64,000 nt of DNA from positions 201,405-265,404 of the forward strand of contig NZ_KL407338.1 in the NCBI RefSeq assembly GCF_000706645.1, in the 5' to 3' direction. Of this stretch, positions 9,482 to 52,871 are shown piece by piece. This stretch comes from Bartonella rochalimae ATCC BAA-1498. GTDB lineage: Bacteria > Pseudomonadota > Alphaproteobacteria > Rhizobiales > Rhizobiaceae. Position 1 is the stretch's first letter; the number at the start of each line of letters is the position of its first letter. The translations under genes and the position numbers were made by a program. Under the pieces are notes generated by a model. It was given only the letters and a program-made list of their open reading frames with translations. It made no database searches and had not been told where the DNA came from.

Positions 9482-9811
9482 TAAATTCTCCTTTTCGACT
9501 TGTATTATTCATGATTCACATAATGTTACATGATGTAATATATGTTGATATGACCTGCTCAGCAAGCTTAAAATAATCCTTTATTTATTATGGTTTGATA
9601 TATTTTATATTTATGCATTTGTTTTGATACAGAGAGATTGCATGGTACAGCACAATTTTCACGCAAGCTTTATTATTTATTTTATACAATGAGATAATGG
9701 ATTAGAGAGCAAAGATAACTCAAAGGAAAATGAACTGGATATGCTTTGAAAATAAGTTAAAGAAAGCTTTTTATAAAAGGTACCCAGTTGTGATTATATA
9801 AGGAGAAAAGC
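9482..9811. other. flhA upstream region
   Basis: About 330 bases between the divergent small ORF and flhA. It holds the candidate flagellar element at 9657-9680, listed separately; otherwise AT-rich. Confidence 0.4.
9657..9680 (+). promoter_or_regulatory. Candidate flagellar promoter/regulator element before flhA
   Basis: TTTCACGCAAGCTTTATTAT starts about 155 bases before flhA and closely matches the sequence upstream of fliF at 40361 (TTTCACGCAAG then T-rich). Looser relatives precede flgB, motA, DUF1217 and flgE. Inferred from by-eye comparison only. Confidence 0.35.
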
Positions 9812-13834: not shown

Positions 13835-13882
13835 ACATCTTGTTAAGATGAGAATTAATAAATATTTTAGAGGGGAATGGAA

Positions 13883-14326
13883 ATGTCTGTAGTACAATAT
13901 GATGATGAAAATGTTGCGTTAAAAACAAAAATTCTTAATAATAATCTCATTGGCCGTGATTGGGCGATGACTAAATTTAATGCTGCCATTAAAGGGTTAG
14001 CAGAAGTTGTTGATTATGAAAGCAATATGCTGGAAAATCACGGTGCTCCAGATTATGAAGAAATTAATTTGCGTAAAACGCGTGGTTTGCGTGATCTTAA
14101 TAAATCAATGAATGATGTAAAACGTTATATGGATCAGGATATTGAAATTGAGATACAGAGTTTGTTAACGGATTTACAAGAAAAATTAAACCGTAATAGT
14201 GAACTTCTTCGTATTCATTTGGAAGCAGTGAGAGATTTATCTCAAATTATGCAGGTTGCTGTTCGTGCTGAAGAAACAGATGGAACTTATGATCCAGTTT
14301 TGGTTAATGCTGGGCGTTCTAGATGA
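13883..14326 (+). CDS. FlgN-like flagellar protein (tentative)
   Basis: 147 residues of mainly helical charged sequence (LAEVVDYESNMLENHGAPDY, NSELLRIHLEAVRDLSQIMQ) without membrane segments. This resembles FlgN-type chaperones, which guard the hook-filament proteins FlgK and FlgL, and similar genes are found next to cheL/flgJ in Rhizobiales flagellar clusters. The ATG at 13883 is preferred over 13877 because the AGGGG then has normal spacing. Its stop overlaps the next start (ATGA). Confidence 0.6.
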   Translation: MSVVQYDDENVALKTKILNNNLIGRDWAMTKFNAAIKGLAEVVDYESNMLENHGAPDYEEINLRKTRGLRDLNKSMNDVKRYMDQDIEIEIQSLLTDLQEKLNRNSELLRIHLEAVRDLSQIMQVAVRAEETDGTYDPVLVNAGRSR

Positions 14327-24659: not shown

Positions 24660-24955
24660 TTAATTTTGAGTTAAGCCTTCATAAACAAGATAAGTTTTTT
24701 CTTGGTTGAGTTGTGAAAATTTCTTCTTATCAAAGAAATGAAGGGTAGCATCGCGATGATTAAGTGTGATGCGTATATTGTTTATCAAATCAGGAAGTTA
24801 ATTCATTCATGGCAGTTAATATTTTGTTATTATGATTGATAAAAGTAAGGTGTTGTAAAGACATCTATAGTGCGGGGCTGGGTATGATTTCATTTTCTTG
24901 TAGATTTAAAATGCGAAAGCAAGTCTCGCACAAGTTTTCTTTATTATGATGATTT
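24660..24955 (-). pseudogene. Decayed or frameshifted leftward ORF between fliI and flgB
   Basis: Reading leftward: LCETCFRILNLQENEIIPSP then a stop, MSLQHLTFINHNNKILTAMN, a stop with an apparent frameshift at about 24792-24806, then LINNIRITLNHRDATLHFFD and KKKFSQLNQEKTYLVYEGLT before a final stop at 24660. The segments have good amino-acid composition but are broken by two interruptions, so a degraded gene is more likely than a functional one. No family is recognised. The opposite orientation to the flanking flagellar genes is odd. Confidence 0.35.
24924..24950 (+). promoter_or_regulatory. Candidate flagellar element before flgB
   Basis: GCACAAGTTTTCTTTATTAT, 27-50 bases before flgB, resembles the fliF upstream sequence (CGCAAGTTTTGTTTTTTATG). 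By-eye match; position relative to the start differs from that at fliF. Confidence 0.3.
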
Positions 24956-30310: not shown

Positions 30311-30811
30311 ATGGCAGAAGAGTCGAAAAAAGAAGAAAACATTGTGCAACGGGAAAGTAGCATAAAAGTTTTTCTGATTGTTGGATTTGTTTTGACATTG
30401 GTTGCTGCTGTTTCTGGGTGGTTTTTAGGAGCATGGGTGAGTCGGGAGATGGCGCCAACTTCTAGTAATTTAAAAGAGTTACCAATGACTAAAACTCCAG
30501 AGAATCTTATTGCTGCTGATTCCCATATTGTTACTTTGCCCCCTATTTTAACTAATATTGCAGTACCAGAAAATGCTTGGATTCGAATGGAAGTCTCTTT
30601 AGTTATTAAGCCTGATGAGAATATTGAAGCTACACTGACAGCTGATATATCAAATGATTTTTTAGCATTTTTGCGACAAGTTACAATCGATCAGGTTAAA
30701 GGGCCGTCAGGGTTAATGAATTTGCGTGCTGATCTTTTAGATCGTGCCAGAGTTCGTTCCGGTAATAAAGTAAGTAATATTTTGATTTCAAGTTTGGTAG
30801 TAGAATCATGA
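30311..30811 (+). CDS. fliL: Flagellar basal body-associated protein FliL
   Basis: Single-span membrane protein that surrounds and stabilises the stator. 166 residues: short cytoplasmic part, membrane helix (FLIVGFVLTLVAAVSGWFLG), then a periplasmic stomatin-like domain (SHIVTLPPILTNIAVPENAW, ADISNDFLAFLRQVTIDQVK, SGLMNLRADLLDRARVRSGN). Stop overlaps fliP start (ATGA). Confidence 0.95.
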   Translation: MAEESKKEENIVQRESSIKVFLIVGFVLTLVAAVSGWFLGAWVSREMAPTSSNLKELPMTKTPENLIAADSHIVTLPPILTNIAVPENAWIRMEVSLVIKPDENIEATLTADISNDFLAFLRQVTIDQVKGPSGLMNLRADLLDRARVRSGNKVSNILISSLVVES

Positions 30812-31560
30812 AGCGGCTTGGCGGTTTTGTATTGATGATATTTTTGTTAGCAACAACAGTTGCTTTTGCGCAAAAAACAGGTGCTGAGAATGCTAGTGGT
30901 ATTGCTGGATTATTTTCTTATCCTGAAGGTTCAATTAGTGGACGGATAGTCCAACTTTTCGGCCTATTGACTATTTTATCAGTAGCTCCTGGTTTATTGA
31001 TCATGGTTACCAGTTTTACTCGTTTTGCCATTGCTTTTTCACTGTTGCGAACAGGTTTAGGATTACAAACAACGCCTTCCAATCTTGTGATGATCTCATT
31101 AGCTTTGTTTATGTCCTTTTATGTAATGGCTCCGACATTTAATACGGCATGGGAGGAGGGGGTCCAGCCTTTAGTAAATAATAAAATCAGTGAACAACAA
31201 GCGATAGAAAAAATTAGTCAGCCCTTTCGAGAATTTATGATATCGCAGGTCCGTGAGAAAGATCTTGACTTGTTTGTTAATCTCTCTGATTCTTCTCTTC
31301 AAGTTAAAACAGGTTCTGATATTGATTTTCGAGTTTTAGTTCCTGCTTTTATGATTTCTGAATTACGTCGTGGGTTTGAAATAGGCTTCCTTATTGTTCT
31401 TCCTTTTTTAGTGATAGATCTTGTCGTGGCTACGTTGACAATGTCAATGGGAATGATGATGTTGCCACCAACGGTTATTTCTCTACCATTTAAAATTCTA
31501 TTTTTTGTATTAGTTGATGGATGGAATTTATTAGTTGGAAGCTTAATAAGATCTTTTTAA
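30808..31560 (+). CDS. fliP: Flagellar biosynthesis protein FliP
   Basis: Export-gate pore protein. 250 residues with a cleavable signal (VLMIFLLATTVAFAQ), then SVAPGLLIMVTSFTRFAIAF, LRTGLGLQTTPSNLVMISLA, the periplasmic segment, LRRGFEIGFLIVLPFLVIDL and the end MGMMMLPPTVISLPFKILFF. Last gene of the flgB operon. In S. meliloti flagellin genes follow here; in this window an autotransporter island does. Confidence 0.97.
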   Translation: MKRLGGFVLMIFLLATTVAFAQKTGAENASGIAGLFSYPEGSISGRIVQLFGLLTILSVAPGLLIMVTSFTRFAIAFSLLRTGLGLQTTPSNLVMISLALFMSFYVMAPTFNTAWEEGVQPLVNNKISEQQAIEKISQPFREFMISQVREKDLDLFVNLSDSSLQVKTGSDIDFRVLVPAFMISELRRGFEIGFLIVLPFLVIDLVVATLTMSMGMMMLPPTVISLPFKILFFVLVDGWNLLVGSLIRSF

Positions 31561-32257
31561 AGTTATATTTAAGCTTATAAATTAGTTTTATTGTATTAAT
31601 TATTTTTAATAAAATTAATAGAATTATAATTTATTCCTACTAGATATGATATTAGTTTCTTTTATAAGATACTATATATATTTTAATAGGATATATTTGA
31701 AAAAAATATTATAATTTATAAATTCTTGTTGAATATTTAGCGTTTGAAATTATAAGACTAATTAAGAACACATTGTAAGCTATTAAATAGGCCGTACTCA
31801 TTATTAGTTAACTTTATACTATATCGCTAACAGTATAAACTTTGTTTAAGTTTTCCATTTATTATAACTAAGTATAAATATAGACTATATTCATCTTATA
31901 ATAATTTTGCTTGTAAATATTATATTCAAATAAAATAGTTGGGATAGAAACAATCGCACCTAAATTTTCAGTAGAAGATTACCAGCATTGTTCTCTGTGA
32001 ATTCAGGTCCAGAAAAATCTGATGCACATAAACAACAGTCTCCGTTAATAAAAATTCATTATGATGCTAAAATCAAAATAAATCAATAGTCAATAATGAT
32101 TTAAATACTTGAATTTATTTGTGATTTATTAAGAACATTATCAATATCTCTCATGCTTCAGTGAAAATGATAACCAAGATTGATAACTTTACATATAATA
32201 TTTTTTGTTGCATATAAAATCCGTTTTAAATTTTATAGTTTAATGGTAGGGTAGATT
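31561..32257. other. AT-rich spacer after fliP with a possible coding fragment
   Basis: About 700 very AT-rich bases before the first autotransporter. A 41-codon open stretch at 31964-32089 (PALFSVNSGPEKSDAHKQQS, then LIKIHYDAKIKINQ and stop) lacks a start codon and could be the tail of a decayed gene. No recognisable flagellin sequence remains. No terminator was seen after fliP. Confidence 0.35.
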
Positions 32258-34456
32258 ATGCACAAAATGCTACATATAATCTTTACGTTTTTGAGTTTTT
32301 TCTTATTGAATGTGTTTTACGTTTTGGCTGAAGTTAATAGCAATCCCAGTGTAGTAAATGATAGATTTTCAGGGGTACCTATTATTGCAATCAAACCAAA
32401 GGATGCGCCTGTTGTTATTAATGGAGGAACATTTAAGGCAGTTTCTGTAGGGATTTTGGCTAATGATATTAGAGCATTTAGTGCTACAGGAATTGATATA
32501 CAGGCAGGTATTGCAGGTATAATACCTGGAGGTGCAACTGAAGTGCATTTAAAAGATTCAGTTATAAATATTAAGAATCCTGATGGACAAATAAGTAAGG
32601 GGTATGGTATTTTTTTTGGATATGATAAGACGTCCTCTAATAGTAACAAGAGTTTCGTTGCTCCAAGTCTTGTAGATCTTACCAATACAAAAATTTTATT
32701 TAGCGAAGTAGGTATTATAGCATTTCAATCAGGTATTGTGTCACTTAAAAATTCAGAAATTCGTTCTAATATTTTATTAGGAAGTTATGCTAGTGATAAA
32801 GAGGTTTTACCTTCCGTTAACATGTTGAGAGTTTCTGCAAGTCATTCTATTCTAGAAGGTTCAGCACAAGCTGAAGGAGTGCAATATTCATTTTTAACTC
32901 TTAAAGACGATTCAAAATGGATCATACCAGTTAATTTTAATATTAGTGAAGAAAAACTGAGTGCAAAGGAGCAACAAGAATCTGTTCTGCATATGCTTAC
33001 ACTTAATAATAGTGCTATTATATTTGATCAAAAAGGTAGTGGTATTTACCAAACTTTACGCATAGAAGATCTCAAACAAAGTGAGATGGGACATTATATA
33101 GCAGTTGGTAATGTTAATATTCATTTTAATATGGGGGTGAGCAGTTCTGATGAAAACGGTTCTAATAAATACGGTTCTGATAAACTTATAATCACCGGAA
33201 CTGATGTATTCGGTACTACTAAAGTTCATATTAATTACGTTGAAGATCAGAATGTAGAGGAAAACCGTAGTGCAACACGTGTTACTAAAAATGCAGTTAT
33301 TTTGCCAAAGGAAGGAGTTACGATTATTGAGGTTCGTGGTGGATCTGCAAATAAAAAGTCCTTCCAATTAGTTCATGGTTATACTGTATTTAATAGCTTG
33401 CCTTATAGGTATGTTCTTAATAGTAAAAGAGAAACTTCTGGTATTTGGAAATTCAATTTGTCAAATGGATATGTTGATGCCCAATCACAAGTGAAAGCCC
33501 TTGTACCACAAATGGCTAGTTATGTGGTTATGCCGAATGCTTTATTTTCTGCTGGTTTCTCTGATATCAGTAATCAGAATGGTATATTAGCTGATGTGCA
33601 GGAAACGTTAAATGTTGCAGGTAAAAAGACGAGTTCTGTCTTTTTATCTTCTTATGGTAATGCAAAAACTTTTTCATCTATTCGTAATCCGTTGCAATAT
33701 GGTTATGGTGCGGATATACGTTATGCTGCTCTACAAACTGGTGCTGTGTTAGGTTCTTTTGAAAATGCAAATACGGTTACCTGTGTCGGTATGTTAGGAA
33801 CTTATGGTCAATTATCTTTTACGCCAAAAGATATGGAAGATTCTGCTAAAAGTACTCTTGATAAGTGGTCCATTTCAGTTTTCGGTAATATGCAGCATGA
33901 TAACAATTCGTATATGAATGCGCTCTTTTCTTATGGTATCTTGAAAGGGCATATTAAGACTGCTGTTGTCGATAATGTAGCAAAACTTGATGATAAAAAG
34001 ATATTAAGTGTATCTGCAACTGTCGGTCACAAATTAGCAACTGGTAATAAAAGTGTATCTTTTGAACCGCAGGCGCAAATTGTTTATCAACGTTTGATGT
34101 TTGATACTATTTTAGATAGCGATAATCTTGAAGTTAATATGAAGGATCCTCATCAATGGTTAATGCGTGTAGGTGGTCGTTTAACCAAAACGCTTCCTGT
34201 TGTTGAAAAGAATAGTTTCATTGCTTTCTATGGAAAAATGAATGTTATAAAGACTCTTAGTTTTAGCGATACCATAGAAGTTGGTGATACTTTTTATCTT
34301 GATTCTATGGGCTCTGCTATTGAGGGTGGTTTAGGTGTTAATGTGCAGTTAACTAACAATATTTTTGTACATGGTGATGCTAGTTATCAGCAAAGGTTAT
34401 CAAAAACTGGTATGTCTGGGGCATCTTTTTCCGGAAAGCTGCAGTATCGTTTTTGA
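32258..34456 (+). CDS. Autotransporter (type Va), 732 aa
   Basis: Surface protein: signal peptide (MLHIIFTFLSFFLLNVFYVL), a passenger of about 400 residues with beta-helix-like sequence (FKAVSVGILANDIRAFSATG, SPSLVDLTNTKILFSEVGI-type strands), and a C-terminal autotransporter barrel beginning around YVDAQSQVKALVPQMASYVV and ending in the outer-membrane signature GKLQYRF. It resembles the inducible Bartonella autotransporter group. The barrel is paralogous to the two leftward genes (shared KALVPQMASY, LFSAGFSDI, FTPKDME, STLDKWSIS) but clearly diverged. Function (adhesion or host interaction) is inferred from the family. Confidence 0.9.
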   Translation: MHKMLHIIFTFLSFFLLNVFYVLAEVNSNPSVVNDRFSGVPIIAIKPKDAPVVINGGTFKAVSVGILANDIRAFSATGIDIQAGIAGIIPGGATEVHLKDSVINIKNPDGQISKGYGIFFGYDKTSSNSNKSFVAPSLVDLTNTKILFSEVGIIAFQSGIVSLKNSEIRSNILLGSYASDKEVLPSVNMLRVSASHSILEGSAQAEGVQYSFLTLKDDSKWIIPVNFNISEEKLSAKEQQESVLHMLTLNNSAIIFDQKGSGIYQTLRIEDLKQSEMGHYIAVGNVNIHFNMGVSSSDENGSNKYGSDKLIITGTDVFGTTKVHINYVEDQNVEENRSATRVTKNAVILPKEGVTIIEVRGGSANKKSFQLVHGYTVFNSLPYRYVLNSKRETSGIWKFNLSNGYVDAQSQVKALVPQMASYVVMPNALFSAGFSDISNQNGILADVQETLNVAGKKTSSVFLSSYGNAKTFSSIRNPLQYGYGADIRYAALQTGAVLGSFENANTVTCVGMLGTYGQLSFTPKDMEDSAKSTLDKWSISVFGNMQHDNNSYMNALFSYGILKGHIKTAVVDNVAKLDDKKILSVSATVGHKLATGNKSVSFEPQAQIVYQRLMFDTILDSDNLEVNMKDPHQWLMRVGGRLTKTLPVVEKNSFIAFYGKMNVIKTLSFSDTIEVGDTFYLDSMGSAIEGGLGVNVQLTNNIFVHGDASYQQRLSKTGMSGASFSGKLQYRF

Positions 34457-34766
34457 TAGGTTAATGCGACTTTAGTAAAGAGGTAATGTACTTTATTTTC
34501 TTCTTTATGTATAAATCTTTATTCTTCTTAGAGCTTTGTGGCCTTCAGAAGCGTCCCAAAAGGTAGACTTTGATAATAAAGATCATTTATGATTTCATAC
34601 TCTTTCTTTCCGCATTCATTTAATAGTGCTTTTATCTCTTGATGAAAAAGCGGATAGAAAGAGAGCTTTCGGGGATGAAGAGAATATAGGTTTCGTGAAT
34701 AGAATTATTATAAAAAAGGGCAGTATTTATACTGCCCTTTTTGTTGAAGTTAATATCAGTATTGTT
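34457..34766. other. Convergent spacer between autotransporters
   Basis: About 310 bases. Contains the bidirectional terminator at 34712-34742, listed separately; otherwise nothing supported. Confidence 0.45.
34712..34742. terminator. Bidirectional Rho-independent terminator
   Basis: An A-run, stem GGGCAGTA, loop TTTA, stem TACTGCCC and a T-run form a hairpin usable from either strand, between two convergent autotransporter genes. A near copy lies at 38266-38296 after the paralogue, so the terminator was duplicated with the gene. Confidence 0.88.
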
Positions 34767-37700
34767 TTAGAAACGGTAACGTATTCCACCTGAGAAAGAG
34801 GTTGCTGATATACCTGCTTTTTGAAGTTTGTGTTGGTGACTGACGTCACCATGCAATCCCAATTTTTTATTTAATTGTGCATTAATTCCTACACCACCTT
34901 CAACAGAAGTTCCCATAGGGTCAAGATGGAAATTATCCGCAACCTGTATTGTATCACCATCACCAAAAGCGTTGATCATGTTCAGTTTTCCATAAAGGGA
35001 AATGATATGACCGTTTTCTGCTGCAGTGACAGTTTTGGTTAAACGTCCACCAATACGAACCAACCATTGGTTAGGATTATTCATATCGATTTCAAGATCA
35101 TTACCATCTGAAATATTATCAAACATCAAGCGCTGATAAGCAAGTTGTGCTTGTGGTTCAAAGACTAACCCTTCAACACCAGTTGCAAATTGTTGACCAA
35201 TAGTTGCAGAGGCGCTCAATGTGTTGACGTCATCCAATTTTGCAATGTTACCAATATCAGCAACTTTAATGTTTCCTTTCACAACGCCATAGGAAAAGAG
35301 TGTATCAAGGTACAAGCCATTCCGATGATGTATACTACCGAAAGCTGAAATTGACCACTTATCAAGTGTACTCTTGGCAGCGCCTTCCATGTCTTTTGGA
35401 GTGAAAGATACTTGTCCATAAGAGCCTAACAAGCCGAAATTTGTTGTGGTATTTTGATTTTCCAGAACACCTAACGCGACCCCTAATTGTAGAGCACTGT
35501 AGCGAAGATCAGCTCCATAACCATATTCCATAGCAGTATGTTTGGATGATAAAGTTGCTGTATTGCCATAAGAAGATAAGAAGAAAGCATTTTTCTTATT
35601 GTTATCATTTTCCAATGACATAGCCCGGAGATTGGATAAGGATGCATTTTGCTGATTGATATCAGAGAAACCAGCAGAGAATAAAACATTTGGCATCACC
35701 AAATAACTGGCCATTTGTGGGACCAGAGCTTTCACCTTTGATTTAGGGTCAAGATAGGCATTTTGCAAACGGAAATCCCAATATGATTGGCCATCACCAA
35801 ACAGACTTTGATTTTCACTTTTACTAGAATTCTCAGGACCGTAGGCATTAAGAGTGTATTTATAAGGAGAATTATTTATTGTGGTATAGCCATTTGCCAA
35901 TTTAAAGGAGTCTTTATTTGCTTCTCCAGAAACTTGGACGAGTGAGAGACCATTTTCATTTGCAGGAACAGAAGCATTTTCTTCTGGTTTCTTCTTTCCC
36001 TTGATACTGTTGACATAGATTGTCGTTGTTCCTGAAGCATCACCATTAATTACAAGTCGATCTGTTTTTTGATCTTTTGTTTTAAGTCCGCTACTCCATT
36101 CAGTGTTGAAGTAAATTTTTGCATCGCCTTTCGCATTATAGACTTTTTTCGCATCGTTTGGAAGAGCAGGTTGTGCTGGATCAACTTCTGGTATTGCTGG
36201 TCCTACATGTAATATCTGATATTGACCATCTGTTGGTTTGTCAAAAACAATGGCACTGTTATCGAGATTAAGCGTAGAAACAGTAGAGTGTGATCTTTGA
36301 GAAATATCAAGCAATGCTCCATCTTCATCTGCACCTTCTTCTTTTTCTTCTTTACTGATTTTAAGCGTCCATACTGTACCATTGGTCAGATTAAAGACTG
36401 TTTTAGCCTTATCTTCAGTTCTAACACCACCTTCTAAGATTGAATGATCTGCATCGAGTGTAAGAGATGCTTCCTTGTCATCTTTAGAAGTGTATTTTAA
36501 TAAAAGATCAGCACGTATTTCTGAATTTTTGAGTTTGATAGCATCTTTTCCAGATTTGTCTCCAAGAATACCTACACCTTTTTCAACGGTAAGTTTTGTA
36601 TTCGTGAAATTAACATTATTTTGTTGATCACCATTCTCATCTTTAAGTTCTAGGCCATTTTTAGCAGCTGTTGCAGAAACATTGGAAATATCAATTTTTG
36701 CACCGTTTTCTACAACGAATGCAACCTCGTGCGCATCAATTGTACCACCTGTCATTTTAACAACTGCTTCTTTCCCAGATACAGAAAGACCAGTGCCTTC
36801 TTTAGATTGAATGGAAACATTTTCTAAAGAAACTGTGCTTCCTTTGGCTTTAAATCCAGACCCTTTGACAACGCTAATTTTTGTATCTTTTAGTTTGTTT
36901 TTATTATTTTTACTGTCTACAAAAGTAACACCGTCTTTTTCTGCTTTAATAGAACCGCCGGTCATATTTAATATTGCTTTATCCTCTATTTCAATACCAA
37001 TGTTATCTGAAGAGATTTCTACATCATTTAATGTAACGCTAGTCCCTTTTCCAGAAGCAACAACTGCTTTCCCAGGAGCATTCTCATAAACGCCATCCTT
37101 TTTTATTGTAATAGAACCACCATTTGCTACAATTGCGGCACCTTCTTCTATTCTAAGGCCTTCTTTTTTTGAAGTAATGTCCACATCGCTTAATGTAACG
37201 GTTGTACCTTTATCCTTAGCTTGTACAGCAGTTTCATCGGCCTCAATAGAGCCACCTTTCATCGTGAATTTAGCTCCATCTGTTAAATCAATACCTGTCG
37301 TTTTTGAAGTAATCTTTACATCGCCTAGTGTAATAGTTGTATCTTTACCTTTAACTCTTACGGCAGTGTCACTGACATCAATGGTACCACTTTCCATTGT
37401 GATTGTACCACCATCACCCGCAGAAAGACCAAAATCAAGATCTTTAATAGTTGTTGTGCCTTTTAGAATAATTTTACTGTTCGACCCTCTAGCTGTTGCG
37501 CCGGTTCCTCGTTTCTTAGCATTGCCAATTAGTGTTAAATCTTCACCTGTGATTGTACCACCTGTTTTTCCATCATTTCTATCTTTATCGCCAGTACCTT
37601 CAGCTCCGTCAATTTCTTCTTTTTTATCACCTACGTAAAGAGCACTTTTTTCTAATTCCGAAGCTTCATAAGTTTTGCCTTTACCGGCATCCCTAAAGGC

Positions 37701-37817
37701 GCCATTAATTATAGAGATGCTTTTCTCATCATCAGCTGCAGCAGCAACATTAAAATGAGCACCAAACAAAATTATAGCAGCCGCAGCTGTACATGATAGA
37801 AGATAATTTTTACACAT
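34767..37817 (-). CDS. Autotransporter (type Va), 1016 aa, beta-helix passenger
   Basis: Signal peptide residues 1 to about 27 (LLSCTAAAAIILFGAHFNVA), then a passenger with imperfect repeats of about 45-50 residues between about 110 and 400: KGTTVTLSDVDITSKKEGL, KGTSVTLNDVEISSDNIGI and KGSTVSLENVSIQSKEGTG each followed by a GGSI/GGTI turn. These are typical right-handed beta-helix rungs. A linker domain (NLTNGTVWTLKI, SAIVFDKPTDGQYQILHVGP) leads to the barrel of about 290 residues ending GGIRYRF. Paralogous to the inducible Bartonella autotransporters. A 639-base stretch of the barrel is identical to the neighbour at 38321. Confidence 0.93.
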   Translation of the reverse strand: MCKNYLLSCTAAAAIILFGAHFNVAAAADDEKSISIINGAFRDAGKGKTYEASELEKSALYVGDKKEEIDGAEGTGDKDRNDGKTGGTITGEDLTLIGNAKKRGTGATARGSNSKIILKGTTTIKDLDFGLSAGDGGTITMESGTIDVSDTAVRVKGKDTTITLGDVKITSKTTGIDLTDGAKFTMKGGSIEADETAVQAKDKGTTVTLSDVDITSKKEGLRIEEGAAIVANGGSITIKKDGVYENAPGKAVVASGKGTSVTLNDVEISSDNIGIEIEDKAILNMTGGSIKAEKDGVTFVDSKNNKNKLKDTKISVVKGSGFKAKGSTVSLENVSIQSKEGTGLSVSGKEAVVKMTGGTIDAHEVAFVVENGAKIDISNVSATAAKNGLELKDENGDQQNNVNFTNTKLTVEKGVGILGDKSGKDAIKLKNSEIRADLLLKYTSKDDKEASLTLDADHSILEGGVRTEDKAKTVFNLTNGTVWTLKISKEEKEEGADEDGALLDISQRSHSTVSTLNLDNSAIVFDKPTDGQYQILHVGPAIPEVDPAQPALPNDAKKVYNAKGDAKIYFNTEWSSGLKTKDQKTDRLVINGDASGTTTIYVNSIKGKKKPEENASVPANENGLSLVQVSGEANKDSFKLANGYTTINNSPYKYTLNAYGPENSSKSENQSLFGDGQSYWDFRLQNAYLDPKSKVKALVPQMASYLVMPNVLFSAGFSDINQQNASLSNLRAMSLENDNNKKNAFFLSSYGNTATLSSKHTAMEYGYGADLRYSALQLGVALGVLENQNTTTNFGLLGSYGQVSFTPKDMEGAAKSTLDKWSISAFGSIHHRNGLYLDTLFSYGVVKGNIKVADIGNIAKLDDVNTLSASATIGQQFATGVEGLVFEPQAQLAYQRLMFDNISDGNDLEIDMNNPNQWLVRIGGRLTKTVTAAENGHIISLYGKLNMINAFGDGDTIQVADNFHLDPMGTSVEGGVGINAQLNKKLGLHGDVSHQHKLQKAGISATSFSGGIRYRF
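35125..35763 (-). repeat. Identical duplicated tract, copy A
   Basis: 639 bases with no difference from 38679-39317 (offset 3554). The first mismatches on each side are at 35124 (C versus T) and 35764 (T versus C). It covers the end of the linker and first two thirds of the barrel. Confidence 0.92.
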
Positions 37818-37972
37818 AAAGATTGTCCTAACTTATAAAACCCAAAATATCCCCCCCGCTTATAAGAAGGATATTGAATCGATAATTCCTATTGGATGAA
37901 GTAAATTATTTTTCCTTATATGTAAAGATAAAAATTATTTTATATTAAAGATAAATAATATTTATTATTTAT

Positions 37973-38018
37973 ATACATAATGTATTATATATTATTATTA
38001 ACAATACATAATGTATTA
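37973..38018. repeat. 15-bp direct repeat, operator-like
   Basis: ATACATAATGTATTA occurs at 37973-37987 and 38004-38018, 31 bases apart (about three helical turns), roughly 155-200 bases upstream of the leftward 1016-aa autotransporter. The core AATGTATTA also occurs upstream of the next autotransporter at 40212. Confidence 0.55.
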
Positions 38019-38265
38019 AATTATTCTTTTAATAAAGAGCTCATTTTTCATATTTATATTTAAAATGAATGCTAAAACAATAACATAATATTATCTTTAA
38101 TCTTTCTAGTATAGAGGATTATTATAAGCTCAATTTAAAATACTGATAAGTTTTCTATTTTTATAAAAATGATGGATATAGTTAAGAATAACTAATCAAA
38201 GAAATAAAATATAATGGAGACTTAATATTTGGGCCTCTTTTAAAAAGAGGGAAGCGAAATAAAAT

Positions 38266-38296
38266 AAAAAGGGCAGTATTTTATACTGCCCTTTTT
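38266..38296. terminator. Bidirectional terminator, second copy
   Basis: AAAAAGGGCAGTA, loop TTTTA, TACTGCCCTTTTT: a 13-bp perfect stem with A/T runs, 25 bases after the 595-aa autotransporter stop. Near-identical to 34712-34742. Confidence 0.88.
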
Positions 38297-38320
38297 ATTG
38301 AAACTAATATCAGTATTGTT

Positions 38321-40108
38321 TTAGAAACGGTAACGTATTCCACCTGAGAGAGAGGTTGCTGATATACCTGCTTTTTGAAGTTTGTGTTGGTGGCTGACAT
38401 CGCCATACAGTCCAATCTTTTTACTCAATTGCGCATTAATTCCTACCCCACCTTCAACAGAAGCTCCCATAGAATCAAGATTGAAATTATCGATAACTTG
38501 TATTGTATTTCTATCAGCAAAAGTTTTGATCACATTTAGTTTTCCATAAAAAGAAATAATATGAGCGTTTTCTGCTGCGGTGACAGTTTTGTTTAAACGT
38601 CCACCAATACGAACCAACCATCGGTTAGGATCATTCATATCGATTTCAAGATTATTACCATCTGAAATATTATCAAATATCAAGCGCTGATAAGCAAGTT
38701 GTGCTTGTGGTTCAAAGACTAACCCTTCAACACCAGTTGCAAATTGTTGACCAATAGTTGCAGAGGCGCTCAATGTGTTGACGTCATCCAATTTTGCAAT
38801 GTTACCAATATCAGCAACTTTAATGTTTCCTTTCACAACGCCATAGGAAAAGAGTGTATCAAGGTACAAGCCATTCCGATGATGTATACTACCGAAAGCT
38901 GAAATTGACCACTTATCAAGTGTACTCTTGGCAGCGCCTTCCATGTCTTTTGGAGTGAAAGATACTTGTCCATAAGAGCCTAACAAGCCGAAATTTGTTG
39001 TGGTATTTTGATTTTCCAGAACACCTAACGCGACCCCTAATTGTAGAGCACTGTAGCGAAGATCAGCTCCATAACCATATTCCATAGCAGTATGTTTGGA
39101 TGATAAAGTTGCTGTATTGCCATAAGAAGATAAGAAGAAAGCATTTTTCTTATTGTTATCATTTTCCAATGACATAGCCCGGAGATTGGATAAGGATGCA
39201 TTTTGCTGATTGATATCAGAGAAACCAGCAGAGAATAAAACATTTGGCATCACCAAATAACTGGCCATTTGTGGGACCAGAGCTTTCACCTTTGATTTAG
39301 GGTCAAGATAGGCATTTCGCAAACGGAAATCCCAATATGGCTGATATAGAGCAAACATACTTTGATTATGGTTATGACGAGAATGCTCAGGAGCATAGGC
39401 AATAAGAATATATTTATAAGGATAATTATTTATTGTGGTATAGCCATTTGCCAATTTAAAGGAGTCTTTATTTGCTATTCCAGAAACTTGGATGAGTGAG
39501 ATACCACTTTTATTATAGATAAGTGGGGTACCACTTCTATCAGGAATAGGAGCACTTTTTGGTTTCTTCTTTCCCTTGATACTGTTGACATAAATTGTCG
39601 TTGTTCCTGAAACATTACCATTAATTACAAGTTGGTCTGTTTCTTGATCTCTTATTGCAAGCGCGCTACTATATTTTGTATTGAAGTGAATTTTTGCATT
39701 GCCTGTTGCATTATAGACTTTTGATAAGGAAGGCGTACTTTGTTGAGATACACTTCTCTCTTCATTTCGCTCTGTAGCTGGTAAGGGGCCTACATATAAT
39801 ATCTGATATTGATCATCTGTTGGTTTGTCAAAAATAATGGTACTGTCATTGAGATTAATGGTAGAAAAAGTGGAGCGTAGTTGATCAGTAACAGGTAAAT
39901 CCTGATTTGCATTTTGCTCTTCTCCCTCTGTTTCCCTTTTATTAATTTTGAGTGTCCATACTGTACCATTATTCAGATTAAGGGCTGTGTTCTCATTTTC
40001 TGTAGGTATGGAACCACTCTGTGAAGCAGCATATAAAGAATTACCACTTAAAAAATGAAAGAATACAGTACTTATGAGTGTATACCGCAATAGGTAATTT
40101 TTGTACAT
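38321..40108 (-). CDS. Autotransporter with minimal passenger, 595 aa
   Basis: Signal peptide (LRYTLISTVFFHFLSGNSLY) joins almost directly to the linker domain (ALNLNNGTVWTLKINKRETE, STIIFDKPTDDQYQILYVGP) that in the 1016-aa paralogue follows the beta-helix. The whole repeat passenger, about 400 residues, is missing. The barrel is complete, ending GGIRYRF, and its central part is identical to the neighbour's at DNA level. The frame is open throughout, so it is a derivative rather than a simple pseudogene. It may display only the linker domain or serve as a recombination donor. Confidence 0.9.
   Translation of the reverse strand: MYKNYLLRYTLISTVFFHFLSGNSLYAASQSGSIPTENENTALNLNNGTVWTLKINKRETEGEEQNANQDLPVTDQLRSTFSTINLNDSTIIFDKPTDDQYQILYVGPLPATERNEERSVSQQSTPSLSKVYNATGNAKIHFNTKYSSALAIRDQETDQLVINGNVSGTTTIYVNSIKGKKKPKSAPIPDRSGTPLIYNKSGISLIQVSGIANKDSFKLANGYTTINNYPYKYILIAYAPEHSRHNHNQSMFALYQPYWDFRLRNAYLDPKSKVKALVPQMASYLVMPNVLFSAGFSDINQQNASLSNLRAMSLENDNNKKNAFFLSSYGNTATLSSKHTAMEYGYGADLRYSALQLGVALGVLENQNTTTNFGLLGSYGQVSFTPKDMEGAAKSTLDKWSISAFGSIHHRNGLYLDTLFSYGVVKGNIKVADIGNIAKLDDVNTLSASATIGQQFATGVEGLVFEPQAQLAYQRLIFDNISDGNNLEIDMNDPNRWLVRIGGRLNKTVTAAENAHIISFYGKLNVIKTFADRNTIQVIDNFNLDSMGASVEGGVGINAQLSKKIGLYGDVSHQHKLQKAGISATSLSGGIRYRF
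38679..39317 (-). repeat. Identical duplicated tract, copy B
   Basis: 639 bases identical to 35125-35763. The sequence outside the tract is 80-95 percent alike by eye, with many scattered substitutions, so the tract looks recently homogenised. Confidence 0.92.
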
Positions 40109-40150
40109 TCTGAAGGACCTCTAAAAAAGTTTACGATTTTCAATAAAATT

Positions 40151-40180
40151 ACCAGCGATTACCGGCGATTACCAGCGATT
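40151..40180. repeat. Three 10-bp tandem repeats
   Basis: ACCAGCGATT, ACCGGCGATT, ACCAGCGATT in tandem, 43-72 bases upstream of the leftward 595-aa autotransporter. A one-helical-turn period puts all units on the same face of the DNA, or on a repeated leader RNA. Confidence 0.75.
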
Positions 40181-40213
40181 ATATGGCAAGAATATGTCTA
40201 CATGATGGCGCAA

Positions 40214-40253
40214 TGTATTATGCACAGTATTATTGTATTATGCACAGTATTAT
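40214..40253. repeat. 20-bp perfect tandem repeat
   Basis: Two perfect copies of the unit TGTATTATGCACAGTATTAT at 40214-40233 and 40234-40253. It shares the AATGTATTA core with the operator-like repeat upstream of the 1016-aa autotransporter. Confidence 0.8.
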
Positions 40254-40360
40254 TATGTGTTATTTAGAATAGATAAAGATGGCATGATAGCGAAATATTA
40301 CCTTTAAATAAATCTATGATATAAGCATATCATGGGTTTTCTATCAAAAACAGGCATCAT

Positions 40361-40387
40361 TTTCACGCAAGTTTTGTTTTTTATGAT
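40361..40387 (+). promoter_or_regulatory. Candidate flagellar promoter/regulator element before fliF
   Basis: TTTCACGCAAGTTTTGTTTT, about 90-115 bases before fliF, is the best match to the flhA upstream element at 9657. In Brucella FtcR binds the fliF promoter region, so this is a candidate site. That is inference: no FtcR consensus was used. Confidence 0.35.
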
Positions 40388-40404
40388 TTAAGCAGTAGGA
40401 GTAG

Positions 40405-40431
40405 GAAAACAGTTGTTTAACAGCTGTTTTC
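40405..40431. other. Strong hairpin before fliF
   Basis: GAAAACAGTTGT, loop TTA, ACAGCTGTTTTC: a 12-bp stem with one G-T wobble, 47 bases before fliF and followed by TTTGTTTT. It could be a terminator insulating fliF from upstream transcription, an attenuator or an operator. Confidence 0.6.
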
Positions 40432-40477
40432 TTTGTTTTACGCGAGATTGTCTTTTCAATAATAATGGTGCAAATCT

Positions 40478-42142
40478 ATGCTTGATAAATTTTTGGCTTT
40501 TCTTTCTTCTTCTGGAAATGCGCTTCATAAACTAGGAGTAAAGCGCCTTATTGCGCTTGGTATGGTTGGATTAACTTTGTTTGGAACAATTTTGTTTTCT
40601 AGCTTTTATTTAACGCGTCCTATTTATGAAATACTTTATGTTGGTCTTTCACGTGATGATGTGAATCGAATGGGAATGGCGTTGGGTGAAGCAGGGATTG
40701 CTTTTGATGTTTCTTCTGATGGTAGTACTGTTCAGGTTCCTGTGGGGCAAGCAGAGCAAGCACGAATGTTCCTTGCCGAAAAAGGACTACCAACATCAAA
40801 TAATGCTGGATATGAATTGTTCGATAATATGGGATCTTTAGGGCTTACGTCTTTTATGCAAGAAATTACACGCCAACGTGCTTTAGAAGGTGAAATCGCA
40901 CGGACGATTCAAGCTGTACAAGGTGTAAAGGCAGCACGTGTCCATATTGTTTTACCAGATAAAGGATCATTTCGTAAGGCTAACCAGAAGCCTACTGCTT
41001 CTGTTGTAATTCGCACTAATAGTGGTTTTGCAGTTGAATTTGCTCAGTCTATTCGTCAATTAGTAGCGGCAGCTGTTCCTTCACTTGAAGCAAGCTCAGT
41101 GACAGTAATGGACACACGTGGACAGTTGCTTGCATCTGGAGTGGATGCAATGAATGGAGCTTCGATGATGATGGCATCTCTTGAGCAACAGGTTGCTTCG
41201 CAAATTGATGCGAATATTCGTAAACAATTGGTTCCTTATCTTGGTCTTGATCATTTTCAAACTAGTGTACAAGTTGTTTTAGATACAGATCGTCGTCAGA
41301 CAAATGAGACCGTTTTTGATCCAGAGTCACAGGTTGTGCGTTCCGTGCGTTCCGTGCGTGATCAAGCTGATAGCCAAAATAACCGTAATAGTGATGCTGT
41401 CGGCGTAGAACAAAATATTCCGCAAGAAGAAATTGCTAATGGTGGTGGAGAAAGATCAACCGATAAAAAAGATCGCCGTGAAGAGATTACTAATTATGAA
41501 ATTAACTCTAAGACTATTTCTACAGTTAGTGATGGTTATAGTGTGAAGAAATTAGCTGTTGCTATCGTGGTAGATCGTGCGCGTTTGGTTCTTCCAGATG
41601 GTACAAAACCAACCTCTGAAAATGCTCTTAATGATGAAGTAAATCGTATTCAGCAGATGGTGGCAACGGCGGCGGGACTTGATCCAAAACGCGGAGATAT
41701 CATTAATGTTACAGCCGTCGATTTCGTTGGTAATTCTGAGGCTGATATGGCACCTGTTCAAGAGCCTCTTTGGAAATCATTGTCACGTTATACATCTGGT
41801 TTGATCAATGGAGTTGCTTTAGTAATTGCTGTTTTCTTGATTTTATTCTTAGGGGTACGTCCTTTGATGCGGGAAATGCGGGAAGGAAAAAAGGCACTTG
41901 AAAATAGTGAAAATGCTGTAGCTGGTCTTGGAAATATACCTGCTTTAGAACACCAATATCAAGATAATGCAGAATTTGGTGGCGTTACAGGCACAAATAA
42001 TGATACACTTCACAATTTACGCAATCGTATGCGTGTTCCACCACAGAATCGTCTTGAGCAAATGATTGCAATGGATGAAGAACGTTTTGCTGGAGTTTTG
42101 CGTGAATGGGTCCATGATACTGACACAACTGTGGCTGTATAG
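40478..42142 (+). CDS. fliF: Flagellar MS-ring protein FliF
   Basis: Inner-membrane ring on which the flagellum is built. 554 residues: N-terminal membrane helix (LIALGMVGLTLFGTILFSSF), secretin-like ring-building domain (YEILYVGLSRDDVNRMGMAL, YELFDNMGSLGLTSFMQEIT, RARVHIVLP-type segment AARVHIVLPDKGSFRKANQK), a second ring domain, C-terminal membrane helix (INGVALVIAVFLILFLGVRP) and a short tail that binds FliG. A 9-base tandem repeat gives VRSVRS at about 41337-41360. First gene of the fliF-motB-motC-fliK block. Confidence 0.97.
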   Translation: MLDKFLAFLSSSGNALHKLGVKRLIALGMVGLTLFGTILFSSFYLTRPIYEILYVGLSRDDVNRMGMALGEAGIAFDVSSDGSTVQVPVGQAEQARMFLAEKGLPTSNNAGYELFDNMGSLGLTSFMQEITRQRALEGEIARTIQAVQGVKAARVHIVLPDKGSFRKANQKPTASVVIRTNSGFAVEFAQSIRQLVAAAVPSLEASSVTVMDTRGQLLASGVDAMNGASMMMASLEQQVASQIDANIRKQLVPYLGLDHFQTSVQVVLDTDRRQTNETVFDPESQVVRSVRSVRDQADSQNNRNSDAVGVEQNIPQEEIANGGGERSTDKKDRREEITNYEINSKTISTVSDGYSVKKLAVAIVVDRARLVLPDGTKPTSENALNDEVNRIQQMVATAAGLDPKRGDIINVTAVDFVGNSEADMAPVQEPLWKSLSRYTSGLINGVALVIAVFLILFLGVRPLMREMREGKKALENSENAVAGLGNIPALEHQYQDNAEFGGVTGTNNDTLHNLRNRMRVPPQNRLEQMIAMDEERFAGVLREWVHDTDTTVAV

Positions 42143-47185: not shown

Positions 47186-47448
47186 ATCATTATGACAAAA
47201 ATAGTAAATTATTTTGATAAAAAAATGAAAATTTGTTTCATTTTGAGATGATATTAATTTTTGTAACAATCTATAGTTGTTTTTTTGTGTCAAAAAACAC
47301 AACCAAAAATAGTAATCGCGTCTTTATAGATAATAAATCGTAAAAATAACTTGTGTTTTTAAAAATTAAAGTTGTATAAATTTAGCAATATGTAGATTTC
47401 CTGCGTATACATTTTAAATTTTAGTTCTAAATTGCTGAGTGAGTGCTT

Positions 47449-48144
47449 ATGATTGTTGTAGTAGATGACCGTAAATTGGTAACAGATGGCTATGCTACCT
47501 TATTTTCTCGCGAAGGAGTTGCTGCAACAGGCTTAGCCCCTTCAGATTTTAGTCAGTGGATTTCAACAGCTTCACATAATGAGATATCTTCACTTGAAGC
47601 AGTTCTTTTAGGAAAATGTGAAAACCAAATCGAATTACCAAAAAAAATTCGAAATTACAGCTCGACTCCAATTTTAGCTCTAACAGAAACAAACATTTTG
47701 GATCATACAATAGAACTTTTTCAATCAGGTATCGATGATGTAATCCGCAAACCAATCCACGTCCGCGAAATTCTAGCGCGAATCGCTGCTATCCGCAGAC
47801 GAATTGGAAATGATATACGAGGAGCAAATACCGCAGTCGAAGTTGGCCCTATTAGCGTCTTCAATGATGGACGTGACCCACAAATCAATGGAGTAAATCT
47901 ACCTCTTCCACGCAGGGAACGCCGTATTCTCGAATACTTAATAGCAAACGCAGGAAAACGTGTTAATAAAACACAAATATTCAATGCGGTATACGGAATC
48001 TTTGATGAAACAATAGAAGAGAACGTTGTAGAAAGCCACATTAGTAAACTTCGCAAGAAACTAAAAGCAAAACTCAACTACGACATTATAGATTCGAAAA
48101 GATTCCTTGGTTACAGCTTACAAATTAAAAATCAATTAGATTAA
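47449..48144 (+). CDS. ftcR: Flagellar transcriptional regulator FtcR (Rem-like)
   Basis: OmpR-type regulator: receiver domain residues 1 to about 115 and a C-terminal winged helix (LPLPRRERRILEYLIANAGK, RVNKTQIFNAVYGIFDETIE, VVESHISKLRKKLKAKLNYD). In Brucella FtcR activates flagellar genes including fliF; Rem is its S. meliloti counterpart. The receiver looks atypical: where a phosphoacceptor Asp is expected (beta-3) the sequence reads LEAVLLGKCEN, with Gly at that place. ATG 47449 is the conserved start (MIVVVDDRKLVTDGY); a GTG at 47443 is also open. Between the transglycosylase and flgE, the rhizobial position. Confidence 0.93.
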   Translation: MIVVVDDRKLVTDGYATLFSREGVAATGLAPSDFSQWISTASHNEISSLEAVLLGKCENQIELPKKIRNYSSTPILALTETNILDHTIELFQSGIDDVIRKPIHVREILARIAAIRRRIGNDIRGANTAVEVGPISVFNDGRDPQINGVNLPLPRRERRILEYLIANAGKRVNKTQIFNAVYGIFDETIEENVVESHISKLRKKLKAKLNYDIIDSKRFLGYSLQIKNQLD

Positions 48145-50962: not shown

Positions 50963-52045
50963 GTGAGAGTTCCTTCAATTTCGACATATGTTTTAAACAA
51001 TGCAAGGCGTAATCTAATTTCTGAGGGGAAGTCTGATTTGATGAAGGCTGGCTATGAAATGGCTACTGGACAGGTGTATGATCCAGGTCTTACATTGGGG
51101 CGTAAAACAGGACGCTTAATGGATATTGAGAATCAGATGAGTTATCTCGAAGGTTATAGTACAAGCAATAAACTTCTTTCATTGAGATTATCTTCTGTGC
51201 AGGCTGCGATTCAAAGTTTAATTGCGTCAGGTGATAAAGAATCAACGCCAGGGTCATTGGTTGTTTTTAATAATATGCTTGTCGGTGATGCAGGAAATGC
51301 GGCACCATCTGCAGCGCAAGCTGTTGCCCAAAATGCTTTGAGTGCATTTATTTCAGCTTTAAATACTAATTTTAATGGTGAATATATATTTGGTGGGACA
51401 AATACGAGTGAACCACCGTTAAAGTTTTATAAAGTATGTGGTGAAACGGGTCCCAGTAAAATTGTGCACGAAGCGTTTGAGAATTTTCTAAATGGCAGAA
51501 AACCAGAAGATCTCACCAGTGAAGAGATGGAAGAATTTATTGATGGGCCTTTTAGTGATTTATTTAATGAAGAGAATTTTAAGGAATTTTTTTCAAATGC
51601 TAAGGATGGTTCTACTGAGAAGCATATTGCACCCAATGGTGATAAGGTAGATGTTGCAGTAAGTGCTAATGATAAAGGTTTTCGCGATGCTATGAAAAAT
51701 CTGATTTTAGTCGCAGAATTTGGTGATATCGGTTTATCAAAAGAAGCACAAGAAAGTCTTTTTTCAAGAGCGCGAGTGTCTGCTGACAATACATCTACAA
51801 GTAGTGTTGTGGATGAAATTACTGCAACAGCTTCTAGAGTAGGAAGTACAGAAACAAGGGTTAAAGCGGCTACGCACCAAATTGAAACTCAAGTAGGCCT
51901 TCTTAAAGGAGCACAAATTGATATGATTGGTGTCGATGCGGCAGAGGTCGCTCAAAAAGTCAAAGCTTTGGAGGCTATGTTAGAGGCTTCTTATACTTTG
52001 ACAGATATGATAAGGCGATTAAGTCTTATTAATTATTTAAAATAA
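50963..52045 (+). CDS. flgL: Flagellar hook-associated protein FlgL (HAP3)
   Basis: Second hook-filament junction protein; flagellin-like fold. 360 residues from GTG 50963. N-terminal VPSISTYVLNNARRNLISEG and LGRKTGRLMDIENQMSYLEG, NFNGEYIFGGTNTSEPPLKF in the middle, and the C-terminal flagellin-type helix VAQKVKALEAMLEASYTLTD. The only flagellin-superfamily gene in the window besides flgK. Strongly linked to flgK. Confidence 0.94.
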   Translation: MRVPSISTYVLNNARRNLISEGKSDLMKAGYEMATGQVYDPGLTLGRKTGRLMDIENQMSYLEGYSTSNKLLSLRLSSVQAAIQSLIASGDKESTPGSLVVFNNMLVGDAGNAAPSAAQAVAQNALSAFISALNTNFNGEYIFGGTNTSEPPLKFYKVCGETGPSKIVHEAFENFLNGRKPEDLTSEEMEEFIDGPFSDLFNEENFKEFFSNAKDGSTEKHIAPNGDKVDVAVSANDKGFRDAMKNLILVAEFGDIGLSKEAQESLFSRARVSADNTSTSSVVDEITATASRVGSTETRVKAATHQIETQVGLLKGAQIDMIGVDAAEVAQKVKALEAMLEASYTLTDMIRRLSLINYLK

Positions 52046-52062: not shown

Positions 52063-52431
52063 ATGTATCAAATGCGATATGAAGATGTCATGGAAGATGA
52101 TGCAATGAGCGCACGTGAGCGCGAACGATTTTTATTTGATCGTTGTATCAAGCTGCTTTTAGCTGCAAAAGCCAAAGGTCCTGGTTCTTGTGAAGCTAAG
52201 GATGCAGTTCAGTTTGCCCGAAAGCTTTGGGTTATTCTTATTGAAGATCTTGGGCAAGCAGCAAATGCTTTACCACAGGCATTGAAAGCTTCTCTTATTT
52301 CTATTGGTTTTTTTATTTTAAAAGAAATTCAGAAATTAGATGAAGGAGAGATTACTGATTTTGATGTTCTTGTTGAGATCTCTGAATCTATTCGTGATGG
52401 TTTGGCAGAAAATGCGGAGATATATGAATGA
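52063..52431 (+). CDS. flaF: Flagellin biosynthesis regulator FlaF
   Basis: 122 residues, helical and soluble: ARERERFLFDRCIKLLLAAK, VQFARKLWVILIEDLGQAAN and EIQKLDEGEITDFDVLVEIS match FlaF, which in Caulobacter and Brucella relatives is required for flagellin production. The stop overlaps flbT by 4 bases (ATGA), pairing the two opposing flagellin regulators. Confidence 0.94.
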   Translation: MYQMRYEDVMEDDAMSARERERFLFDRCIKLLLAAKAKGPGSCEAKDAVQFARKLWVILIEDLGQAANALPQALKASLISIGFFILKEIQKLDEGEITDFDVLVEISESIRDGLAENAEIYE

Positions 52432-52871
52432 GCAAAAAAACAATCCGTTTGACACTCAAACCAAATGAAAGAATCTTTCTTAATGGTGCTGTATTACGGG
52501 TGGATCGTAAAGTAACTTTTGAATTATTAAATGATGCAACTTTTCTTTTAGAAGGGCATGTTTTACAAGTTGAAGATACTGATACTCCTCTTAAACAGCT
52601 TTATTTTTCTGCTCAGCTTGTGTTGATTAATCCAAGCGAAGCGGAGAAAGCATTAACTGTGTTTGTTAATCTGTTAAAAAAGTTACTTCAAACCTTTACT
52701 GATTGTGACCTTTTGAAAGGCTTAAAGGAGTGTATTTATTTAACTGAGCAAAATAAAATTTTTGAGGTATTAAAAGTTCTTCGTAGTTTGTTTCAGAAAG
52801 AAGCACAGATTATGGGTAAAATATCCTCACCAAATACGACAAGTATAAGTGTAAGACAAGTTGGAATGTAA
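52428..52871 (+). CDS. flbT: Flagellin mRNA repressor FlbT
   Basis: 147 residues: RLTLKPNERIFLNGAVLRVD, RKVTFELLNDATFLLEGHVL, QLYFSAQLVLINPSEAEKAL are the conserved N-terminal domain of FlbT, which binds the flagellin mRNA leader and limits translation in Caulobacter. Its presence implies a flagellin target gene outside the window. Followed 17 bases later by flgD. Confidence 0.95.
   Translation: MSKKTIRLTLKPNERIFLNGAVLRVDRKVTFELLNDATFLLEGHVLQVEDTDTPLKQLYFSAQLVLINPSEAEKALTVFVNLLKKLLQTFTDCDLLKGLKECIYLTEQNKIFEVLKVLRSLFQKEAQIMGKISSPNTTSISVRQVGM

Follow-up and report, generated by a model that had tools for sequence, protein, structure and literature searches.

The window analysed here, a 64,000-nucleotide stretch at G000:C2:201405-265404 within a Bartonella genome of 1.53 Mb, carries a flagellar locus in which three autotransporter genes, AT1, AT2 and AT3, are located between fliP and fliF. 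FliF shares 96% identity with its counterpart in Bartonella sp. AR 15-3 and 92–93% with that in B. clarridgeiae, and the genome was assigned on these identities to the clarridgeiae group, which is lineage 3 in the naming of PMC6519360. An earlier sequence-only reading of this DNA had reported the order fliP, three autotransporter genes, fliF, and Pfam domains confirm it (window 30808–42142). Its two further observations, that the window has no flagellin gene and that FlaF and FlbT are intact, hold as well, by a Flagellin_N search of the genome and by Pfam, respectively. AT2 and AT3 lie on the strand opposite to fliP and fliF. The autotransporters are assigned below to the Iba (inducible Bartonella autotransporter) family, a name taken from Guy et al. 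2013 (PMC3610622). The features of the interval, referred to here as the slot, and the two genes acting on flagellin are as follows.

30808..31560, + strand: fliP, left border of the slot (Pfam FliP, E 5.7e-77; NCBIfam TIGR01103)
31561..32257, no strand: intergenic stretch of 697 bp with no detectable flagellin remnant, the place of a flagellin-like gene in five relatives
32258..34456, + strand: AT1, classical autotransporter (Iba family), 732 residues, frame open (Pfam Autotransporter, E 2.2e-18; barrel tree)
34767..37817, − strand: AT2, autotransporter (Iba family), 1016 residues (Pfam Autotransporter, E 6.4e-27; AC_1)
35125..35763, − strand: 639-nt tract in AT2, identical to a tract in AT3 (alignment; coordinates converted by hand)
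38321..40108, − strand: AT3, passenger-truncated paralogue of AT2, 595 residues, frame open (Pfam Autotransporter, E 1.6e-26; alignment to AT2)
38679..39317, − strand: 639-nt tract in AT3, partner of the AT2 tract (alignment; coordinates converted by hand)
40363..40374, + strand: candidate box TCRCGCAAGYTT, about 120 nt before fliF (conserved upstream element)
40478..42142, + strand: fliF, right border of the slot (Pfam YscJ_FliF, E 2e-54)
52063..52431, + strand: flaF (Pfam FlaF, E 7.9e-28)
52428..52871, + strand: flbT (Pfam FlbT, E 2.8e-36)

The fliP–fliF interval across relatives

One FliF scan gave 72 named loci, 56 of which are from outside Bartonella (Phyllobacterium, Brucella/Ochrobactrum, Falsochrobactrum, Mesorhizobium, Candidatus Tokpelaia, Hyphomicrobiaceae and others). 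A flagellin is located between fliP and fliF in 50 of these 56 loci; of the remaining six, five lack fliP in the part that was fetched and one shows a different gene order. Within Bartonella, a fliF match was found in 25 of 71 genomes (in one of them, G029, as a short remnant only) and fliP in 24, with both genes on a single contig in 19. We refer to the large genomes, including B. apis, B. apihabitans and B. choladocola, as B. apis-type, and to the other group as vertebrate-type. The slot is filled by one to six flagellins in all ten contiguous B. apis-type genomes, and by autotransporters in all nine contiguous vertebrate-type genomes. Where contigs are broken, autotransporters stand at both ends in G010 and G015, flagellins stand at the ends in G057 and G061, and G062 is unreadable. 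Altogether, slot flagellin is present in 12 of the 13 B. apis-type genomes, the unreadable G062 being the thirteenth, and each of the 11 other Bartonella that have fliP and fliF carries slot autotransporters. The comparison of this junction that the sequence-only reading had proposed thus shows the order fliP, flagellin, fliF in the nearer relatives, and the interval is supported as an ancestral flagellin slot.

Five vertebrate-type genomes (two of B. bacilliformis type, Bartonella sp. WD12.1, G012 and G037) keep both kinds of gene, with a flagellin-like gene of 350–387 residues directly after fliP, followed by the autotransporters. In G029 the flagellar genes are fragmented, and a short flagellin-like remnant is kept together with autotransporter genes. 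Since five genomes have both genes and G029 has a remnant, the autotransporters were inserted before the slot flagellin was lost. The five complete genes are located as follows.

Slot flagellin-like genes, after fliP: L156:9740-10903; L157:9470-10522; L158:9740-10888; L159:9825-10973; L160:6701-7798

The sequence-only reading had inferred that autotransporters replaced the flagellin. This stands in so far as the slot was ancestrally occupied by flagellin, on the counts for the 56 outside loci and the B. apis-type genomes, but there was no single clean swap, given the five genomes that keep both. The same reading had named an outcome that would speak against replacement, namely a flagellin elsewhere in the genome combined with a fliP–fliF neighbourhood ancestrally lacking it in all relatives; a flagellin is indeed present elsewhere, but relatives do hold flagellin in the slot.

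The position of the autotransporters could also be a coincidence, if this part of the chromosome is a hot spot for surface genes and their arrival had nothing to do with the loss or movement of flagellin. We regard this as possible but rather unlikely. At least eight secretion clusters have integrated in the same chromosomal region according to passages of Guy et al. (PMC3610622), and the presence of a flagellin-like gene side by side with autotransporters in five genomes would fit. Against it, every one of the 11 genomes read has the insertion between fliF and the place of the flagellin, and in each the slot flagellin has either diverged or escaped detection. A straight replacement, in which one recombination swapped flagellin for autotransporters in the window's own lineage, is improbable. 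It agrees with the finding that the window and its lineage-3 relatives have no flagellin remnant after fliP and that AT1 has the orientation of the flagellin there, but it is contradicted for the island as a whole by the five genomes with both genes and by the remnant in G029, which place the insertion before the loss. It could fit AT1 alone if AT1 is a newcomer in lineage 3.

Flagellin within and outside the slot

The flagellin-like proteins left in the slot have diverged from typical flagellins. None of the four scanned (of five) matches a Pfam family at E ≤ 0.001, Flagellin_N and Flagellin_C included, and the Flagellin_N search of the genomes missed them. One slot protein matches solved flagellins with an E value of 2.6e-16 (phmmer), and another has an NCBIfam flagellin match below threshold (65.3 bits, against 311). 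In a flagellin tree of 49 rows, from which three duplicate start variants had been removed beforehand, the slot paralogues form one clade with support of 100/100 that adjoins the relocated flagellins described below. Their pairwise ratios of nonsynonymous to synonymous substitution rates (dN/dS) are 0.30–0.54. For each of three pairs the value is lower than in all 500 neutral simulations, and a neutral copy kept its frame open in 0, 0 and 11 of 500 simulations, respectively. These values together with the simulations indicate that the slot gene is retained under purifying selection and is not a pseudogene. The conserved N-terminal flagellin motif is gone from the slot protein, B. bacilliformis also lacks approximately the first 35 residues, and the slot copies have no flagellin leader as judged by eye. 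A tblastn search with slot, relocated and bee flagellins as queries found nothing at E ≤ 1 in the slot intergenic stretches of G000 (the window's genome), G041, G042 and G002. Candidate remnants in G010 and G015 were rejected as being at chance level, the best of them (E 0.001) falling inside an autotransporter gene of G015. A single-sequence AlphaFold model of the slot protein had a mean predicted local distance difference test score (pLDDT) of 35, and no inference was drawn from it.

The search of the rest of the genome that the sequence-only reading had called for found one intact flagellin at G000:C2:28307, about 173 kb before the window, with both the Flagellin_N and the Flagellin_C domain. 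The only other Flagellin_N match in the genome is located at about window position 50978, at the place of FlgL in the cluster, and is named by that position. In all ten vertebrate-type genomes examined (of 11; G010 was left out), the typical flagellin adjoins the same oxidoreductase gene, in a neighbourhood with etfQO, rsmI and pyrF as identified by Pfam. It stands between the oxidoreductase gene and etfQO in eight of the ten; the other two, G012 and G037, show rearrangements. Five flagella-less genomes have the junction of the oxidoreductase gene with etfQO, with no flagellin match there at E ≤ 0.1.

The 70 bases before the relocated flagellin resemble the leader of the bee slot flagellins. 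Two hairpins can be drawn in the conserved leader (L173:8221-8292 and matching leaders), the second of which pairs with the GGGAC ribosome site. From 29 distinct leaders listed, 28 were used, G057_3 being excluded as very divergent, and each hairpin is paired at 5/5 positions in 26 of the 28. Compensatory changes include those from GCUGG/CCAGC to GCUAU/AUAGC and from GUCCC/GGGAC to GUUCC/GGAAC. When up to two mismatches are allowed, an 18-base piece of the leader has a single occurrence in the genome, which is at the flagellin. According to passages of a review (PMC4347634), the 5′ leader of flagellin is a proposed binding target of FlbT in Caulobacter and Brucella, and by inference FlbT would read the leader of the relocated flagellin in this genome. 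FlaF and FlbT presumably act on the relocated flagellin in trans; a working flagellin elsewhere, with its structured leader, would explain why both are intact.

Two further observations concern the relocated copies themselves. The flagellin of G042 (L175) is frame-shifted in its N-terminal part, through either a sequencing error or a broken gene. In three ruminant-type genomes (L176, L181 and L183), two inverted flagellin copies flank a block with the pyrF neighbourhood at one end and the oxidoreductase gene at the other. The orientation of this block in G040 differs from that in G012 and G029, as if it had been inverted by recombination between the copies.

The autotransporters, their spread and their regulation

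All three slot proteins carry the C-terminal autotransporter beta-barrel domain PF03797 over its cut-off, which places them in type Va, and their N-termini are hydrophobic as judged by eye. A structure model, made for AT2 only, predicts a beta-helix in the passenger, with pLDDT mostly above 90 at residues ~110–480. The best solved-fold match of the model is pertactin (1dab, E 1.1e-5); its barrel part, built from only seven sequences, is of low confidence. AT3 retains the barrel and a short passenger only, most of the passenger being gone. In the barrel region AT2 and AT3 are identical over 639 bases, and they differ in the remaining sequence, which suggests a recent gene conversion or duplication. 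A further perfect match of 300 nt between the two was discounted, since the compared extracts overlapped there. The tree of the barrels joins copies of one genome with each other in the window's group and in several flagella-less genomes, a pattern that gene conversion would produce; copies from the ruminant-type genomes group rather by position.

The slot genes were assigned to the Iba family by their location inside the flagellar cluster and their homology to the tandem clusters that other Bartonella carry at this site; no Iba model came from any family library searched. BafA, an angiogenic autotransporter described in passages of PMC7366657, is likewise classical and from the same genus, and its barrel has a weak likeness to those of AT2 and AT3. 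Against the cut-off of 700 bits for the BafA family (NCBIfam NF040482), however, AT2 scores 29.5 and AT3 34.1, and AT1 is not listed. Three tandem BafA-family autotransporter genes that exceed the cut-off are found at G000:C2:329945-337178, a locus separate from the flagellar one. With scores far under the cut-off and the true members at another locus, the slot genes are not BafA. The base composition (GC) of the island is not foreign, no phage family matched in AT2, and the flgH–fliL–fliP stretch had no match in a plasmid collection.

Five of the 46 genomes without a fliF match, picked for their strong AT2 matches, were examined at the corresponding site. The Iba cluster is bordered in all five by HAD and RibF genes, as the flagellar locus is in the window, and in four of them the other flank consists of Fec-type transporter genes. 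The sole flagellar-locus protein of at least 120 residues still found there at E ≤ 0.01 is the counterpart of window 13877–14326, present in all five, with a stop near its end in G033. The autotransporters in these five genomes do not need the flagellum, and the cluster was kept at the same site after flagella were lost. The window gene at 13877–14326 encodes 149 residues, for which neither Pfam nor trusted NCBIfam models gave a match; judged by eye, the protein looks like a FlgN-type chaperone. Relatives of AT2 occur in 58 of the 71 Bartonella genomes. The 13 genomes lacking them comprise G063 and 12 of the B. apis-type genomes; the one remaining B. apis-type genome has a weak match only (E 3.2e-5). 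Among the 99 genomes from other genera in the family sample, none gave a match at E ≤ 1e-20.

A candidate regulatory box, TCRCGCAAGYTT, stands 112–123 nt before fliF in all 18 Bartonella checked, and 58–103 nt before fliF in eight of nine non-Bartonella genomes, Tokpelaia being the exception. Its sites in the window are 9659–9670 (flhA), 24926–24937 (flgB) and 40363–40374 (fliF), the match being exact before fliF and flhA and having one mismatch before flgB. Matches with up to two mismatches are at chance level in the window (16 seen, 17.8 expected), so that the putative box is read only from the two exact sites, the one-mismatch flgB site and the conservation across genera. The fliF box has been retained through the insertion of the island. 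FtcR was considered as the reader of the box and rejected, as the motif published for Brucella from chromatin immunoprecipitation, TGTGGGCA, given in passages of PMC9456535, is unlike TCRCGCAAGYTT.

The sequence-only reading had suggested that the autotransporters may be regulated together with motility, and for AT1 and AT2 this finds no support. AT3 starts with fliF from a common divergent intergenic stretch of 369 bp that holds the fliF box, and only there does AT3 have a box. The box scores 13 of 19 upstream of AT1 and 11 of 19 upstream of AT2, and a score of 13 is reached by 28 of 300 shuffles. None of AT1–AT3 is preceded by the flagellin leader (21–22 of 45 at best, versus 43 of 45 for the flagellin). 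Control shared with motility is unproven and, as AT1 and AT2 lack both box and leader, seems unlikely by this route for these two genes. That the autotransporters took over the regulation of flagellin and are expressed with the motility genes is accordingly hard to credit, the divergent AT3–fliF stretch notwithstanding, since the cluster also persists in genomes with no flagellar genes and passages of Guy et al. (PMC3610622) cite an upregulation of iba genes during endothelial infection in vitro.

Proposed history of the slot and earlier reports

We propose a history in which an Iba cluster was inserted into the flagellin slot, the flagellin was relocated, the relict diverged or was lost, and the cluster outlived the flagellum; taken as a whole, this is very probable. 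The Iba cluster would have entered between fliP and fliF, where it stands today, most simply once, in the ancestor of the vertebrate-associated bartonellae. Before or around that entry, a flagellin copy together with its leader would have been placed elsewhere in the chromosome and taken over the supply of the filament; its place and leader are observed directly, and the order of the two events is the conjectural part. In five genomes the copy left in the slot has diverged into a flagellin-like protein that purifying selection maintains, as seen in the substitution rates, and in the window's lineage it was lost, no remnant being detectable after fliP. Within the slot, the autotransporter genes duplicate and convert each other's barrels and their passengers diverge, as AT2 and AT3 exemplify. 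The proteins are probably exported by Sec, with the C-terminal barrel putting a beta-helical passenger on the surface, as family and fold suggest; on the same basis their most likely role in infection is that of adhesins or variable surface antigens.

Several observations weigh against this history or parts of it. The relocated flagellins group together with support of only 85/85, and the slot branches are long and of odd composition, so that the duplication may have preceded or followed the insertion. The slot copies are under weaker constraint than the relocated flagellins of the same genomes (dN/dS 0.30–0.54 versus 0.11–0.43). The Fec flank was not found in G027, and the site was seen in only five of the 46 genomes that lack fliF. 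No donor, integrase or repeat at the boundaries came to light, and no search was aimed specifically at integrases or boundary repeats. For the leader, the pairing count is that of the best 5-mer in a short stretch, taken without a shuffle control; RNAalifold on 30 leaders returned the first hairpin, not the one at the ribosome site; and the window's own genome pairs 4/5 in hairpin 1.

The bare observation is already covered by Guy et al. (PMC3610622), passages of which describe iba genes inserted at the centre of the flagellar cluster and infer their presence in the common ancestor of Bartonella. The Iba proteins described there resemble those of the window in being tandem, fast-evolving classical autotransporters of variable copy number at the flagellar cluster centre, and occur in all Bartonella of that study and in none of its outgroups. 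The main text of that paper differs in not using the word flagellin; its Figure 6, which sets the order of the flagellar genes against that of Ochrobactrum, may include the gene. What is added here is the identity of the slot, the relict paralogue, the moved flagellin with its leader, and the B. apis-type genomes as the state before insertion. For the slot identity, the selected slot paralogue and the moved leader, no report was found in searches of an open-access library, which mostly lacks subscription journals. In B. clarridgeiae, a member of the window's group, ibaE likewise stands two locus tags after fliP, in a stretch rich in variants between strains (PMC10438800); the passages of that source, in contrast, have no word on a flagellin position or on the history of the slot. 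FlaC, the secreted non-motility flagellin of Campylobacter jejuni (PMC4863622), is similarly a paralogue kept though other genes make the filament. It serves only as an analogy for the slot protein, and no homology beyond the flagellin family is claimed.

The locus offers a readable series of steps by which the most exposed gene array of a motile gut symbiont gave way to adhesin-type genes of a blood-borne pathogen: a flagellin array, an insertion beside the flagellin, a working flagellin that moves with its control leader, a relict that diverges or is lost, the loss of the flagellum, and autotransporters that stay. It also yields two concrete items for testing. One is the conserved flagellin mRNA leader, found in a genus that has FlbT and able to pair with the ribosome site of its own message; the other is the selected flagellin-like protein of the B. 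bacilliformis-type and ruminant-type genomes. More speculatively, the fliP–fliF interval may be a long-lived cassette site for surface antigens. In ancestors living in the insect gut it would have housed a tandem, diversifying array of flagellins, and with the move to mammalian blood it would have been re-used for autotransporters, again as a diversifying array. One exposed array would have succeeded another in place before flagella were lost, and the leftover flagellin would have become a secreted, non-filament flagellin-like protein in some lineages. We put this forward tentatively, and think it doubtful in its full extent.

The remainder of the window is occupied by the flagellar locus, where several genes are named by their order. 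Pfam identifies before the island FlhA, FliR, an FlgJ-type rod-binding protein, FlhB, FliG, FliN, FliM, MotA, FlgF/G-type rod proteins, FliI, FlgB/C-type rod proteins, FliE, FlgA, FlgI, FlgH, FliL and FliP, and after it FliF, MotB, an FliK-type protein, FlgE, FlaF, FlbT and FlgD. The response regulator of the flagellar locus is located at window 47443–48144. Between fliN and fliM, the gene at window 18668–19153 matches NCBIfam NF046118 over its cut-off (E 9.5e-57) despite its location in the flagellar locus, the name of that family being BAB2_0123 family type IV secretion system effector.

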